The notes below the pieces were generated by a model that saw only the letters and a list, made by a program, of their open reading frames with translations, did not search any database and was not told the origin of the DNA. 63,377 nucleotides of DNA, from assembly GCA_937934115.1 (NCBI GenBank), contig CALHAH010000003.1, positions 40,001-103,377 of the forward strand, in the 5' to 3' direction. A program made the translations under genes and the position numbers. Within the stretch, counting starts at the first letter, position 1; each line of letters begins with the position of its first letter. Origin of the DNA: an uncultured Thermoanaerobaculum sp. (lineage in GTDB: Bacteria; Acidobacteriota; Thermoanaerobaculia; Thermoanaerobaculales; Thermoanaerobaculaceae). Of this stretch, positions 1 to 63,377 are shown piece after piece.

Positions 1-199
1 CCGAACCGGGGAGTTACAAAGTACCCACCTAGCAGAACGGTCTGGAACGGCCGGCCATAGAGGGTGACAGCCCCGTATGCGAAAGGTGCGGTGCCTCCCT
101 AATCGGGTACCCAAGTACCACGGGACACGTGGAACCCTGTGGGAATCCGGGAGGACCACCTCCTAAGGCTAAATACGTCTCAGCGACCGATAGCGAACC

Positions 200-246
<47 letters not shown>

Positions 247-482
247 GAGTACCTGAAACCGTTCACCTACAAGCAGTGGGAGGGCTATGCCTGGCAGCAA
301 TGCTGGGAATGCCTAACTGCGTGCCTTTTGCATAATGAGCCGGCTAGTTACTCTCGGCGGCGAGGTTAAGCTTTTTGCGAAGCCGTAGGGAAACCGAGTC
401 CGAATAGGGCGATGAGTCGTCGGGAGTAGACGCGAAGCGGGATGATCTACCCTTGGCCAGGATGAAGCGTGGGTAACACCAC

Positions 483-514
<32 letters not shown>

Positions 515-729
515 GCTTGGATGAGCTGAGGGTAGGGGTGAAAGGCCAATCAAATTCCGTGATAGCTCGTTCTCCCCGAAATAGCTTTAGGGCTAGCCTC
601 GCGTGGTCCGTGGCGGTGGTAGAGCACTGGATGGGTTAGGGACCTTAACCGGTTACCGACCCCAACCAAACTCCGAATGCCGCCAACGTCAAGCGCGGGA
701 GTCAGACGGCGGGGGATAAGCTTCGTCGT

Positions 730-766
<37 letters not shown>

Positions 767-805
767 CAAATGACAGCTAAGTGGGAAAGGATGTGGGGTT
801 GCTGG

Positions 806-868
<63 letters not shown>

Positions 869-1661
869 TAGCGACCCTGTGCCGAAAATGTAACGGGGCT
901 TAAGCTGTCTACCGAAGCTGCGGATCTGTGCGACCTGCGGGTCGTGCAGGTGGTAGGGGAGCGTTCCATGCGCGGTGAAGTCAGACCGTGAGGACTGGTG
1001 GAGTGCATGGAAGTGACTCTGCCGGCACAAGTAGCGATAAAGCAGACGAGAACTCTGCTCGCCGGAAGCCTAAGGTTTCCTGAGCAAGGTCAATCCGCTC
1101 AGGGTGAGTCGGTCCCTAAGGCGAGGCCGAACGGCGTAGTCGATGGGAAACGGGTTAATATTCCCGTACCACTCTGTCCTCGTTATCACGATGGGGTGAC
1201 GCAGAAGGATAGGCGGGACTGCGATTGGAAGTGCAGTTGAAAGCGTGTAGGCGGGGGTGGTAGGCAAATCCGCCGCTCCGTTAACGCCGAGGCGCAATGA
1301 CGAGTAGGCGTAAGCCGAAAGCCGCTGATTCCACGCTGCCGAGAAAAACCTCTAAGGAGAGGGCAGGGTGACCGTACCGCAAACGGACACACGTAGGCAG
1401 GGTGAGTAACCCAAGGCGCTTGAGTGATCCCCCGTGAAGGAACTCGGCAAAATGGCCCCGTAACTTCGGGAGAAGGGGCGCCTCCTGCCGTGTAGATCCT
1501 TGCGGTCGAAGCGGTGGGGGGTCGCAGTGAAAGGGCCCAGGCGACTGTTTACTAAAAACACAGCACTCTGCAAACGTCACAAGCGGACGTATAGGGTGTG
1601 AAGCCTGCCCGGTGCCGGAAGGTTAAGGGGAGGGGTTAGCCGCAAGGCGAAGCTCTGAACT

Positions 1662-1705
<44 letters not shown>

Positions 1706-2331
1706 TAGTCTCGCTAGCCTTAGTAAAATCGAACTATATGCGGGAAACTCCTCAAAAACCTGGCGGTACTCGTCGGTGTCACGCACTGGCAGTAAAAATC
1801 CGCGGGTCAAGGGGACAATCCGCAGGGAAGACCTGGCGCGAGCCAGGGACCCTCAGAGACTTTACGTTCGAGGTCAGCTATGAACCTTGACGCTCAGTGG
1901 GTAGTGGGTTTTGTGGACGGCGAAGGCTTATTCCATGTGGGAGTGTTCAGACATCCGGAAATGGCTGTGGGTTTTCAGATTCTAGCGGAATTCACCGTGG
2001 TGCAGCATGAGCGAAATGTGGCTGTGCTTTATGCGTTGAAGAAGTTTTTTGGGTGTGGCGTTGTAAGACGCAATCACGGTGATCGGATGGCATATCGCGT
2101 TCGGAACCAAGAACATTTGCGCGAAAAGATTATCCCGTTCTTCGAAAAGCATCCCCTCAAGACCAAGAAGAGGCAGGATTTCATGATTTTTCGGCGGGTG
2201 CTTTTAATGATGTCTCGTGGTGAGCACTTGACACCCGAAGGCCTCGAGAAGATTCGGCGCATGGTGCAACGTTCCAGTGGTGGCTGACCAAGATAAAGTC
2301 CGGCCCTTCTGGAAACAGAAGGGGTGAACCG
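1706..2331 (+). mobile_element. group I self-splicing intron in 23S rRNA at position L1931
   Basis: The exon sequence CCTAAGGT (ending 1705) continues as AGCGAAATTCC only at 2332, so 626 bases are inserted after E. coli U1931. Group I hallmarks are visible. The exon end CTAAGGT (1699-1705) pairs with an internal guide GCCTTAG (1717-1723), giving the required U-G wobble at the 5' splice site, and the intron ends in G2331. The P element lies around 1737-1751, Q (AATCCGCAGGG) at 1817-1827, R (CTCAGAGACTTTA) at 1852-1864 and S (AAGATAAAGTCC) at 2290-2301. P4 can form between TGCGG 1739-1743 and CCGCA 1820-1824. A P9-like hairpin, CCCTTCT/AGAAGGG, lies near 2304-2322. The endonuclease frame sits between R and S, in the P8 loop. 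Introns at this same site are known in Thermotoga 23S genes. Confidence 0.95.
1880..2287 (+). CDS. intron-encoded LAGLIDADG homing endonuclease
   Basis: A 135-residue protein with a single LAGLIDADG-type motif near the N-terminus (WVVGFVDGEGLFHV, about residues 8-21) and the downstream beta-strand and helix pattern of single-motif enzymes. Single-motif members act as homodimers, cleaving an intronless 23S allele so that repair copies the intron in. The conserved acidic residue of the motif (D in VDGEG) is present and the frame is intact, so activity is plausible. The ATG follows the intron R element by about 15 bases. The frame ends two bases before the S element, so it occupies the P8 loop without disturbing the catalytic core. 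Cleavage activity is inferred; the family assignment is firm. Confidence 0.92.
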   Translation: MNLDAQWVVGFVDGEGLFHVGVFRHPEMAVGFQILAEFTVVQHERNVAVLYALKKFFGCGVVRRNHGDRMAYRVRNQEHLREKIIPFFEKHPLKTKKRQDFMIFRRVLLMMSRGEHLTPEGLEKIRRMVQRSSGG

Positions 2332-2375
<44 letters not shown>

Positions 2376-2818
2376 AAACGATCTGGGCGCTGTCTCCGCG
2401 GGGGGCTCAGCGAATCTGAAGTACCGGTGAAGATGCCGGTTACCCGCACCAAGACGGAAAGACCCTGTGCACCTTTACTACAACTTGTCACTGGACCTTG
2501 GTGTGGTATGTGCAGGATAGGTGGGAGGCTGTGAAGCCGGGGCGTCAGCTTCGGTGGAGCCGTCGGTGAGATACCACCCTTACTGCACTGGGGTTCTAAC
2601 CCAGGGCCGTAATCCGGTCCGGGGACAATGGCAGGTGGGTAGTTTGACTGGGGCGGTCGCCTCACAAAGGGTAACTGAGGCGCCCAAAGGTCCGCTCAGG
2701 CTGATTGGAAACCAGCCGGAGAGTGCAAAGGCATAAGCGGGCTTGACTGCGAGACCCACAAGTCGAGCAGGGACGAAAGTCGGGCTTAGTGATCCGGCGG
2801 TCCCGTGTGGAAGGGCCG

Positions 2819-2870
<52 letters not shown>

Positions 2871-2887
2871 AGTTCACATCGACGGCG

Positions 2888-2974
<87 letters not shown>

Positions 2975-3034
2975 TGAGCTGGGTTTAGAACGTCGCGAGA
3001 CAGTTCGGTCCCTATCTGGTGCGGGCGGAGGACA

Positions 3035-3067
<33 letters not shown>

Positions 3068-3135
3068 AGGACGGACGGACCTCCAGTGTACCGGTTGTCG
3101 CGCCAGCGGCAGCGCCGGGTAGCTGTGTCCGGAAA

Positions 3136-3172
<37 letters not shown>

Positions 3173-3360
3173 CCAAGATCAGGTGTCCCGGGCGTCATGC
3201 CCCTAAAGGCCCCTGGTAGATGACCAGGTTGATAGGCGGGAGGTGTAAGCGCGGTAACGCGTTGAGCTGACCCGTACTAATCGGCCGTGCGGCTTGACCA
3301 TACTTCCTTCCCAAACGCTTGCTGTGCCAACCCAGTTGAGTTGTCCAAGGTGTTGAGGTT

Positions 3361-3540: not shown

Positions 3541-3918
3541 GCTTGGTTTGAGGCAGCGACCTACTGGGGTTGAGCACGCGCCAGCTTTGCTGGTGCGTGC
3601 GTAAGGTTCGGCGGGCAGAACGCGCGGGCGTGTGGCAGGGGCTGCGCGCGAGCCCCCCGCAAAACAAAATGTGGGACCCGCGCTCCGCGCGGGTTTTGCA
3701 GGAAAGTGTCCAGAGCACGCGAGCGAGGACCGGCTTTGCCGGGCCCGGCGGTGGAGGTGCGGGGGGCGGGATGCCGCGCCAAGGGTTGGTGAAGGGCACG
3801 CGTGTTCGGCGGGGGAGACACGCCGGGCCTAGGTTTCGTGGCAGGCGCCAAGTCCTAAGGGCTCCATAAAGGGGGCGGGTACGAGAACCATTGGCGGGGT
3901 TTGGCGTAAAAAAGAGTT
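3541..3918. other. hairpin-rich non-coding spacer after the rRNA operon
   Basis: No convincing gene is present. The stretch holds a 14-base inverted copy of the 5S 3' end (3552-3565), a hairpin GGGGCT...AGCCCC (3638-3656), one dispersed palindromic repeat (3667-3697) and further GC palindromes such as CCGGCTTTGCCGGG near 3730. Open frames here have low-complexity Arg/Ala/Pro content and no family resemblance. A promoter for the gene at 3919 must lie near 3880-3915, but I cannot point to it confidently. Confidence 0.6.
3667..3697 (+). repeat. REP-like palindromic repeat, type B
   Basis: The head AAATGTGGGA is followed by the palindrome CCCGCGCTCCGCGCGGG and then TTTT. Its reverse complement recurs almost exactly at about 44630-44660 and, with one change, at the end of the window (about 63354-63377). 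Confidence 0.8.
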
Positions 3919-14036: not shown

Positions 14037-14382
14037 GGTCTTGCTCTCGATTTTGGAGAAATCCCGATACACCGTACAACTCACCCGTGAGAATGGTCTC
14101 AAAGCTCTACCCATAAGTCAACCCCCCGCATCGTCTCATCAAAAAGCTGCCCGAAAGGGGTTGGACCGCCGCTCCGCCTGTGGGGTCGGCTAGGTAAATG
14201 CGGGGCGCGGTGGGGCAATGTGGGGCCGCTTCGCGGCGGCTAACCGCTCCGCGGCGGCTGACTGCTCCGTGGCGGCTAACACACCCGCGCGCAGCGCGGG
14301 TTTCACCGTTTGTCCTTGCAAGCTGTAACGGGGCTTTTCACGTTTTTTGTTTACGACCTGCCACGGATTCAAGCTTTTGCCC
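14037..14382. other. non-coding spacer between cold-shock and DUF2520 genes
   Basis: No gene is supported. It contains the tandem repeat cluster listed separately, a structured-looking stretch at about 14041-14121 on the minus strand ending in the hairpin at 14009-14036, and unremarkable sequence at 14303-14382. Confidence 0.5.
14162..14302 (+). repeat. palindromic repeat cluster with three tandem 18-bp units
   Basis: AATGTGGGGCCGC begins a run of three 18-base units at 14226-14243, 14244-14261 and 14262-14279. The consensus is CCGCTCCGCGGCGGCTAA, differing at only a few positions. A related CCCGCGCGCAGCGCGGG palindrome follows at about 14283-14300. A degenerate unit (CCGCCGCTCCGCCTGTGGGG) precedes it. 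The heads match the REP-like family found elsewhere in the window. Confidence 0.8.
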
Positions 14383-15219
14383 TTAAAGGTCCTCGGTTTC
14401 CGGGTTTTGCTGCGGAAAAACCTCGCCGCGAAGACGCGCAGAAACAAACGCCGTAAGGGCCTGATAGACGGCCTTTACCTCCGGCTGCAAAACGTTCTCA
14501 TGAGCGTGGATGGTGCCGTAGTCGTTGCGCACCAGCGGCCCCGTGAGCAGATTCCAACCGTGCCCGCCGGTGGCCTGTTCTACCACCGTGGCAGCCAGCT
14601 TTCGCAGGGCCAAGGAAATGTGCTCGGCAGGAAACCCCGCCCGTCGCAGCTCTTCTTGGGCGGCTTGCAGGAGCGCGTGAACTAAAGGCGCGGCCAGGGT
14701 CGCGGCTGCGTGGTAGAGGGGCCAAGAGAGGGTCGGGGCGTGAACCGGTACCATGCCAGTGGCCTCAGCGAGCTCGTGTCCGGCAGCCACAGCTGTGGGG
14801 TGGCCGGCAAGGGTAACCACCGCGCCGCGAAAGTCCACAACCGGCTCTATAGGGTGTGGAAAAGGGAGAAGGGGGTGGAACACACCGGTGGCAAACCCGG
14901 CGCCGGCGAGGGAATCGAGAACAGAGGGACCGAAGGCTCCGGAACAATGAAGAATGATTGCCCCCGACGGCAAGCGGGGGGCTAAAGCCATGCCCACTTC
15001 GGCTATTTGGGCGTCGCGAACCGCGAGAATCACCCGTGTGGCCGGGGGTAACGGGCGGTGGCTCTCAAGGAGCAGCCTTTGCGGGAGGACTTGGGCAGCG
15101 TTGGTACGGCTTTCCAAAGAATGGCACACTACGCCAAAAAAAGACACGTGGTGCTGGTAGAGCACCCTGGCCAGCTGTAAACCCAGGCGACCTGCTCCCA
15201 CAATGAGCCAAGGTTCCAT
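14383..15219 (-). CDS. Rossmann-like DUF2520 domain protein
   Basis: A 278-residue protein beginning WLIVGAGRLGLQLARVL, a GxGxxG dinucleotide-binding motif. It continues with a second domain typical of DUF2520 proteins (GVFHPLLPFP...; YHAAATLAAPLVHALLQ). The architecture resembles F420/NADP-dependent and 6-phosphogluconate-type dehydrogenases, but the substrate is unknown. In other bacteria such genes often sit near pantothenate genes; here it is divergent from hrcA. The ATG at 15219 puts the nucleotide-binding motif at the N-terminus. A longer in-frame start (15336) would run across the hrcA promoter region and is rejected. Confidence 0.8.
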   Translation of the reverse strand: MEPWLIVGAGRLGLQLARVLYQHHVSFFGVVCHSLESRTNAAQVLPQRLLLESHRPLPPATRVILAVRDAQIAEVGMALAPRLPSGAIILHCSGAFGPSVLDSLAGAGFATGVFHPLLPFPHPIEPVVDFRGAVVTLAGHPTAVAAGHELAEATGMVPVHAPTLSWPLYHAAATLAAPLVHALLQAAQEELRRAGFPAEHISLALRKLAATVVEQATGGHGWNLLTGPLVRNDYGTIHAHENVLQPEVKAVYQALTAFVSARLRGEVFPQQNPETEDL

Positions 15220-32222: not shown

Positions 32223-33685
32223 CGCTTGAAAAAGCCAGTAGTGGGTTTTTCCGGGGTGGTTCGGCCTCCCAGCGCTGCAATTTGTTGGTTAAGCTCCTTA
32301 ATGCGTTCCTGCAGTCGGTTGATGGTTTCCTTGTTTTCAGCTTCGATGCGAGCTTTTTCCGCACGCATGGCTTCCAGTTGGTTGCGGAGCTCGGCGGCTA
32401 ATGTGCTGTTGGAGCTCATCTCTTGGCGAAGGCTCGCCACCTGGGCCTGCAGGTCGGCGATGAGCTCGTCCTTTTCCTGCATTCGCTGCCGCCACCTCTC
32501 CTCCTGCTCCTCGTAGAGCCTCTTGATTTCCATGAGCTCCATGATTTCGGCAAAATCTGCGGGCGACGGCGCCATACCTTCCTCCCGGTACTTCTCTTCA
32601 ATATTGGGAAACATCTTGCGCAGCTTGAGGGAGAGGTCTTCGGGATCCAGAGACTTCTCCATGGCCACGCGGTAATCAATAACGTTGTTAACCAAAAGTG
32701 CCAAAAGGCTTTGGTTCATGGACTGCATGCGGTAGTAAGCCACCGAGGTTTCAATTTCTTCGTGGATTTCCTTAATTTCCCCCGCTTCGATGTGCTTGGC
32801 CACCTTGGGGGAGTTGATGAGCACTTCCACCGCTGGCACCAAGCCTTGCCCGTCCTTCCGCGGCACCAACTGCATGGACATGACGGCTCGTAACACCTGC
32901 GCCAGTTGCGAACGTATTTGCTCCTGCTGCTCTGGGGGGAAGGCGTCAATGATGCGGTCCACGGTTTGGCTGGCGGAGTTGGTGTGCAAAGTGGAAAACA
33001 CCAAATGTCCGGTTTCGGCGGCGGTTATGACCGTGGCAATGGTTTCCAAATCCCGCATTTCCCCCACCATGATCACGTCGGGGTCCTGGCGCATGGCGTT
33101 GCGCAGGGCCTCGCGAAACGATGGGGTGTCGGTGCCCACCTCCCTTTGAGACACGGTGGCCAGGTGGTCCGAAAACAAGAACTCAATGGGGTCCTCAATG
33201 GTAACCACGTGACAGGGGCGGGTCTTGATGATGTCCTGAATAATGGCGGCAAGGGTGGTGGACTTGCCGGAACCTGTGGGGCCGGTAATGAGCACCAGGC
33301 CGGCGGGGTACTGGGCGAAGCTAGCCACCACTTTGGGCAAGTTCAATTCATCGTAGTTTTTGATTTCAAAAGGGATGCGGCGAAAAACCGCAGCAATGGA
33401 GCCGCGCTGCTGGAAAATGTTGCAGCGGAAGCGTGCGACCCCTGGCACCCCGTAGCCAATGTCCACGGATTGCCGTTCGTCGAACTTTTGCTTTTGCACT
33501 GGGGTCAAAAGCGGCAGCACCATGCTTTCCACTTCTGCCGGCTTGAGCGGGGGTGACTTGATGGGCATGAGCTTACCGTCAATGCGAACCATGGGCGGGC
33601 GCATGGGCTTAAGGTGCAAGTCAGAGGCGCCCTTTTTGGTCATGAAACGCAACAGGTCATCGAGAGACAAGGCAGCGGCTTCCAT
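32219..33685 (-). CDS. PilT-like pilus-retraction ATPase with coiled-coil tail
   Basis: A 488-residue secretion-type ATPase. Residues about 1-355 match PilT/PilU: SDLHLKPMRPPMVRIDG, Walker A ITGPTGSGKSTTLAA, Asp box TIEDPIEFLF, Walker B QDPDVIMVGEMRD, His box ETGHLVFSTLHTNSA. Beyond the normal end, residues about 375-475 form a charged heptad-rich coiled coil (YEEQEERWRQRMQEKDEL; LRNQLEAMRAEKARIEAE) and a short tail TTGFFKR. It powers type IV pilus retraction; no other pilus genes are near. The start at 33685 has a TACAGT hexamer seven bases upstream; a 69-residue longer frame has no domain similarity. Confidence 0.9.
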   Translation of the reverse strand: MEAAALSLDDLLRFMTKKGASDLHLKPMRPPMVRIDGKLMPIKSPPLKPAEVESMVLPLLTPVQKQKFDERQSVDIGYGVPGVARFRCNIFQQRGSIAAVFRRIPFEIKNYDELNLPKVVASFAQYPAGLVLITGPTGSGKSTTLAAIIQDIIKTRPCHVVTIEDPIEFLFSDHLATVSQREVGTDTPSFREALRNAMRQDPDVIMVGEMRDLETIATVITAAETGHLVFSTLHTNSASQTVDRIIDAFPPEQQEQIRSQLAQVLRAVMSMQLVPRKDGQGLVPAVEVLINSPKVAKHIEAGEIKEIHEEIETSVAYYRMQSMNQSLLALLVNNVIDYRVAMEKSLDPEDLSLKLRKMFPNIEEKYREEGMAPSPADFAEIMELMEIKRLYEEQEERWRQRMQEKDELIADLQAQVASLRQEMSSNSTLAAELRNQLEAMRAEKARIEAENKETINRLQERIKELNQQIAALGGRTTPEKPTTGFFKR

Positions 33686-44501: not shown

Positions 44502-44584
44502 CCTTGCCGCCCCGTCCCGGCCCCGTTCTTCCTCCGCTCCTGCCTTTGAGGCCTGCGCGAGAGATAGGAGGCCGCCGGGTATTG

Positions 44585-44683
44585 AAATGTGGGGCCGGCG
44601 CTCCGCGGCGGCTATTTTCGCTTTGCTTCGAAACCCGCGCGGAGCGCGGGTCCCACATTTCGCCTGCGCGGAGCGCGGGTCCT
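44585..44683. repeat. REP-like inverted repeat doublet plus a half unit
   Basis: A forward type A unit (AAATGTGGGGCC with CCGCTCC-like palindrome CGGCGCTCCGCGGCGGCTA, 44585-44614) faces a reversed type B unit (AAACCCGCGCGGAGCGCGGG then TCCCACATTT, 44631-44660) across a 16-base spacer. The whole can fold as one long hairpin with ATGTGGG/CCCACAT ends. A further partial unit, TGCGCGGAGCGCGGGTCC, follows at 44665-44682. The rest of the 275-base spacer (44502-44776) has no gene. Confidence 0.85.
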
Positions 44684-44776
44684 AAAGGCGCTTTTTCTTT
44701 TTTGCCGGTTGGGCGCAGGGATGGAGATGGTCGCCCGTGGCCTTGAGGAGAGGGCTGGGCTAGGGCATACTGGCAC

Positions 44777-63268: not shown

Positions 63269-63377
63269 TGTGGGGCCGCCGCGAGGAAAGTGTGGGGCCG
63301 CCTGGAGAAATGTGGGGCCGCCGCTCCGCGGCGGCTATAAACGCTTTTCGTCACAACCCGCACGGAGCGCGGGTCCC
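63269..63377. repeat. REP-like repeat cluster at the window end
   Basis: Three heads of TGTGGGGCCGCC occur at 63269-63280, 63291-63302 and 63311-63322. The third continues into the full type A palindrome CCGCTCCGCGGCGGCTA. After a 15-base spacer a reversed type B unit (AACCCGCACGGAGCGCGGGTCCC) runs off the window end. The layout repeats that at 44585-44660. Confidence 0.85.

Follow-up and report, generated by a model that had tools for sequence, protein, structure and literature searches.

GTGG-tagged REP doublets, most likely spread by a RAYT transposase, in a Thermoanaerobaculum genome

In Pseudomonas fluorescens SBW25, inverted REP doublets known as REPINs lie in extragenic space, and RAYT genes adjoin REPIN clusters (PMC3116915). 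The sections of PMC2817692, PMC3733652 and PMC6006769 that describe REPtrons define a REP by a GT[AG]G tag, of which GTGG is a described variant, placed 0-2 nt 5' of a hairpin whose stem is perfect and 7-20 nt long and whose loop measures 2-5 nt; a REPtron is a RAYT gene flanked by inverted REPs. Those sections make no mention of the lineage studied here; RAYTs of Acidobacteria flanked by TIRs are described in excerpts of PMC3733652. The palindromes reported below are a small family of this known repeat type and a clean example from a little-studied lineage. They resemble the SBW25 REPINs in a spacer whose length is fixed while its sequence varies, in their extragenic location and in their single long hairpin, but the doublet joins two unit types (A and B) linked by compensatory base pairs, whereas the two REPs of a typical REPIN are identical. 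The tag is GTGG, and there are about 100 units rather than hundreds, a copy number that is also low compared with classical REPs. Tag, stem and loop agree with those of GTAG/GTGG REPtrons, although a RAYT of the species itself was not found in its assembly. In E. coli the REP stem is bulged and the tag is GTAG, whereas the stems here are perfect and closer to the group 3 REPs of PMC8266576; the E. coli enzyme TnpA-REP (PDB 4er8; PMC8266576), whose substrate is tag plus hairpin, is homologous by sequence to the RAYT of a relative (G011). The alternating REP orientation and some higher-order clusters are shared with BIMEs, but most copies here are single doublets, accompanied by a distinct composite class of 165-167 nt.

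The window is a stretch of 63,377 nt, positions 40001-103377 of contig C3, in an assembly of an uncultured Thermoanaerobaculum sp. (G000; 2.42 Mb, 52 contigs, 96.7% complete); its end is also the end of the contig. The assembly was pattern-searched as a whole, and the sequence itself was read in stretches surrounding the matches. Two assemblies of the same genus (G001 and G002) and three of the same family (G011, G013 and G004) were used for comparison. Allowing up to three mismatches, the A unit TGTGGGGCCGCCGCTCCGCGGCGGC has 30 sites in the 2.42 Mb and the B unit TGTGGGACCCGCGCTCCGCGCGGGT has 60, while the same patterns reversed have none in the whole genome. The units are thus dispersed in many copies, far above chance. 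At the REP places no Rfam family reaches its gathering threshold, and the A unit found no match in a reference collection of genome contigs.

A preliminary description of the window had noted palindromes headed by TGTGGG(G/A)CC in four intergenic places (3667, 14162, 44585 and 63269). All four places exist and the heads are real, but the head by itself is just mildly enriched in the window (9 observed, 2.55 expected), which is what an origin of these palindromes by chance in GC-rich DNA would have in its favor. That origin is refuted by the reversed control, and the fixed spacing and extragenic placement also speak against it, so that we give it practically no weight. Two extra matches to TGTGGGGCC, at 33275 (+) and 46044 (-), are inside long ORFs and outside any palindrome unit. 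The features of the window are collected in Table 1.

Table 1. REP units and doublets in the window (window coordinates)
Feature	Position	Strand	Remark
B-type REP unit	3670..3694	+	Perfect; starts degenerate copy of ~166-nt composite element
Degenerate A-like unit	14219..14240	+	Read from sequence
Degenerate B unit	14283..14307	-	4 mismatches
Whole doublet (REPIN), outer arms GAAATGTGGG / CCCACATTTC	44584..44661	.	One long hairpin
A-type REP unit, GTGG head, 8-bp stem, TCC loop	44588..44612	+	One mismatch vs A consensus
Doublet spacer, 20 nt	44613..44632	.	Length conserved in genome, sequence variable
B-type REP unit, tail-to-tail with A unit	44633..44657	-	Perfect consensus
Degenerate B unit	44662..44686	-	4 mismatches
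Two truncated A heads (63269, 63291) upstream of full A unit	63269..63303	+	
A-type REP unit	63311..63335	+	Perfect
B-type REP unit, incomplete	63356..63377	-	Ends at contig end

When a unit is numbered from TGTGGG, positions 7-14 pair with positions 18-25 around a TCC loop. GTGG occupies positions 2-5 and is followed by one G, the 8-bp stem and its 3-nt loop, in line with the REP definition above. The stem arms are GCCGCCGC/GCGGCGGC in A and ACCCGCGC/GCGCGGGT in B. The two types differ at six positions, which make up three base pairs (7-25, 10-22 and 11-21), each changed on both sides. Two stem types tied by compensatory changes within one doublet are a direct sign that the hairpin is preserved. 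The stretches read around matches contain 12 instances of a third stem type, GCCGGCGC, whose loop is TCCT in most cases. Among 87 distinct sequences seeded on the head TGTGGG[AG]C, 38 form good hairpins with their own downstream arms, compared with a mean of 12.6 and a maximum of 21 when the downstream parts were re-dealt in 500 shuffles, a test that counts related sequences more than once. Downstream arms therefore match their own upstream arms better than shuffled ones do; it is the hairpin, not the letters, that is conserved, and selection acts on the stems.

The doublets follow a strict geometry. At 44585 and 63311 an A unit stands opposite a reversed B unit, as described before; the second B unit is incomplete because contig C3 ends there. 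The 78-nt doublet at 44584..44661 folds with z scores of -7.0 and -6.5, one per strand. The same arrangement recurs elsewhere in the genome, where the 20 A/B pairs facing each other have spacers of 20 nt (14 pairs), 19 nt (2), 21 nt (2), 9 nt (1) and 59 nt (1), so that 18 of the 20 fall within 19-21 nt, with varying spacer sequences. Eight further pairs involve the third stem type and also have a spacer of 20 or 21 nt. Two inverted REPs, a set spacer length and a long hairpin make these pairs REPINs. The pairs had been called head-to-head, which is wrong: the GTGG heads point outward, and in the terms of PMC3733652 we read the pairs as tail-to-tail. Excerpts of that source give variable spacers in tail-to-tail dimers as a rule of thumb.

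The near-perfect 13-nt inverted arms that bound the doublet could also be taken as the terminal inverted repeats of a MITE, with TGTGGGRCC ends, derived from a classical DDE transposon. Yet no constant target duplication was seen by eye next to the doublets, each half is a stem-loop of its own, and lone units as well as tandem pairs of B units in the same direction occur in G000. The gene found between such repeats in relatives encodes a Y1 HUH RAYT, and a MITE origin is therefore very improbable.

A second, longer class consists of a B unit, a conserved hairpin-rich middle of about 120 nt and a reversed A-like head; of the 11 copies in which both ends could be recognized, 8 measure 165-167 nt. 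Its core has 26 matches in the stretches read, for example from C29:41424 onward and at 3670-3790 of the window. Of 26 A units in G000, 13 are preceded within 30 nt by truncated A heads, which are perhaps remnants of cleavage or replacement.

Mapping the clusters against genes placed 48 of 50 outside genes in G000, at a coding fraction of 0.86 (measured in the window); these figures are approximate, since genes were called with a home-made codon-usage caller, and the two remaining clusters touch weak ORF calls. In 21 clusters one side of the stretch holds no gene, mostly because a contig ends there. About 20 of the 50 clusters are at contig ends, suggesting that REPs break the G000 assembly. 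The gaps are tandem in 16 cases, divergent in 6 and convergent in 5. Palindromes retained mainly for a function in the cell, as terminators, stabilizers of mRNA 3' ends or gyrase/nucleoid sites, with their mobility lost, would account for the selection on stems. However, there is no bias to convergent gene ends, and no T run follows the A or B stems. We consider a predominantly cellular role improbable; it does not exclude past spread by a RAYT.

The relatives provide the enzyme. In G011, doublets of the genome's own TGTGGGGC palindromes enclose an ORF of 156 aa, which scores 91.4 bits against NF047646 and matches the solved TnpA-REP structure (PDB 4er8) with an E value of 2.9e-8. Used as a query, it is 54% identical to a 151-aa ORF in the sister genome G001 (C13:156-611), which has A/B doublets on either side. 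The G001 protein scores 79.7 bits against NF047646 (cut-off 80) and 21.2 bits against PF01797, below the cut-off of 23; a lack of RAYTs in the genus, as PF01797 alone would indicate, was rejected as wrong on this account. G001 thus contains what the REPtron definition describes, a Y1 HUH gene flanked by REPs of its own family and of the very palindromes seen in the window, and so does G011 with its own palindromes. The RAYT homologues in G013 and G004 likewise adjoin palindromes of their own, and all four proteins share the HUH motif and Y-I-x-x-N-P without variation. RAYT genes located between these very repeats speak against a mainly cellular role. A protein scan of the reference contig collection retrieved just distant RAYTs (20-38% identity), many of which carry GTAG palindromes of their own.

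No RAYT had been noticed in the window, and we find none of the G001 type in the whole G000 assembly, though the assembly is interrupted at the matching locus. A PF01797 search of G000 gave no match with a profile that is too strict here, and the G001 RAYT, searched against all six frames, gave a single weak match (E 0.048), to a distant Y1-like ORF on contig C30. This ORF (L169:1414-2040, minus strand) encodes a distant Y1 HUH protein of 208 aa with 59 bits against NF047646, below cut-off, and no A or B units were found in the surrounding sequence read. A hand-typed generic RAYT N-terminus retrieved the same ORF and was kept out of the evidence. The gene after the G001 RAYT has 78% DNA identity to the gene that opens contig C10 of G000, and a G000 cluster of one forward A and two reversed B units (C10:22-120) directly precedes that matching gene. 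Since the orthologous place of the RAYT is an assembly break in G000, absence or loss of the gene does not follow.

The combined A/B pattern matches 26 sites in G001; in its congener G002, pattern and RAYT searches of the assembly found neither such a site nor a RAYT. Three congeneric assemblies therefore represent three states: G001 has REPs and a RAYT, G000 has REPs but no RAYT that was detected, and G002 has neither. The gap corresponding to 44585 holds REPs in another arrangement in G001 and none in G002; the REP-free state was read directly from the sequence, as the G002 piece aligns poorly in a three-way alignment. Of 19 REP loci in G001, 14 have at least one flanking gene in common with a G000 REP cluster, and 5 share both flanks with one cluster, whereas about two would be expected by chance, a rough estimate that was not computed. 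Such retained addresses would fit a function in the cell, but arrangement and spacer at the common places differ between the species: 11 of 14 close A/B pairs in G001 have spacers of 13-14 nt, compared with 20 in G000. Common flanks with species-specific spacers suggest either that these gaps are hot spots or that old sites turn over in place, rewritten in each species. It is possible, but in our judgment rather unlikely, that addresses are kept between species while the RAYT inserts doublets anew into REPs already in place, or promotes gene conversion, so that spacer length and loop type at common sites become uniform within each species. Common addresses combined with species-specific spacers allow the way in which REPINs are homogenized to be tested. 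No excision or insertion events were seen; the sister species shows REPs in the same gaps, with no clean empty sites.

Repeats, fixed spacer length, extragenic placement, compensatory stems and the relatives' RAYTs with their cognate palindromes uphold the earlier suggestion of a REP/BIME system served by a RAYT. The GTGG-tagged REPs are paired as REPINs, and the doublet, about 70 nt long, is most likely a non-autonomous mobile element spread by a RAYT. By analogy to the characterized systems (PMC3116915, PMC8266576), each REP would fold into a hairpin where the DNA becomes single-stranded. The RAYT, a Y1 HUH enzyme, would read the GTGG guide beside the hairpin, cleave nearby through its tyrosine and move the doublet into another extragenic place. 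Cleavage, mobility and the action of this lineage's RAYT on the present copies are thus proposed on the model of those enzymes.

Two other observations concern the window. The genes flanking the REPs at 14162 (14126-14447) are on separate contigs in G001 (C20:101144 and C10:271), each beside REPs, which may reflect a rearrangement at the REP or a mere contig break. The 23S rRNA gene at 1-3301 holds a group I intron at 1673-2322, and within this intron lies an ORF for a LAGLIDADG_1 endonuclease (1880-2287).
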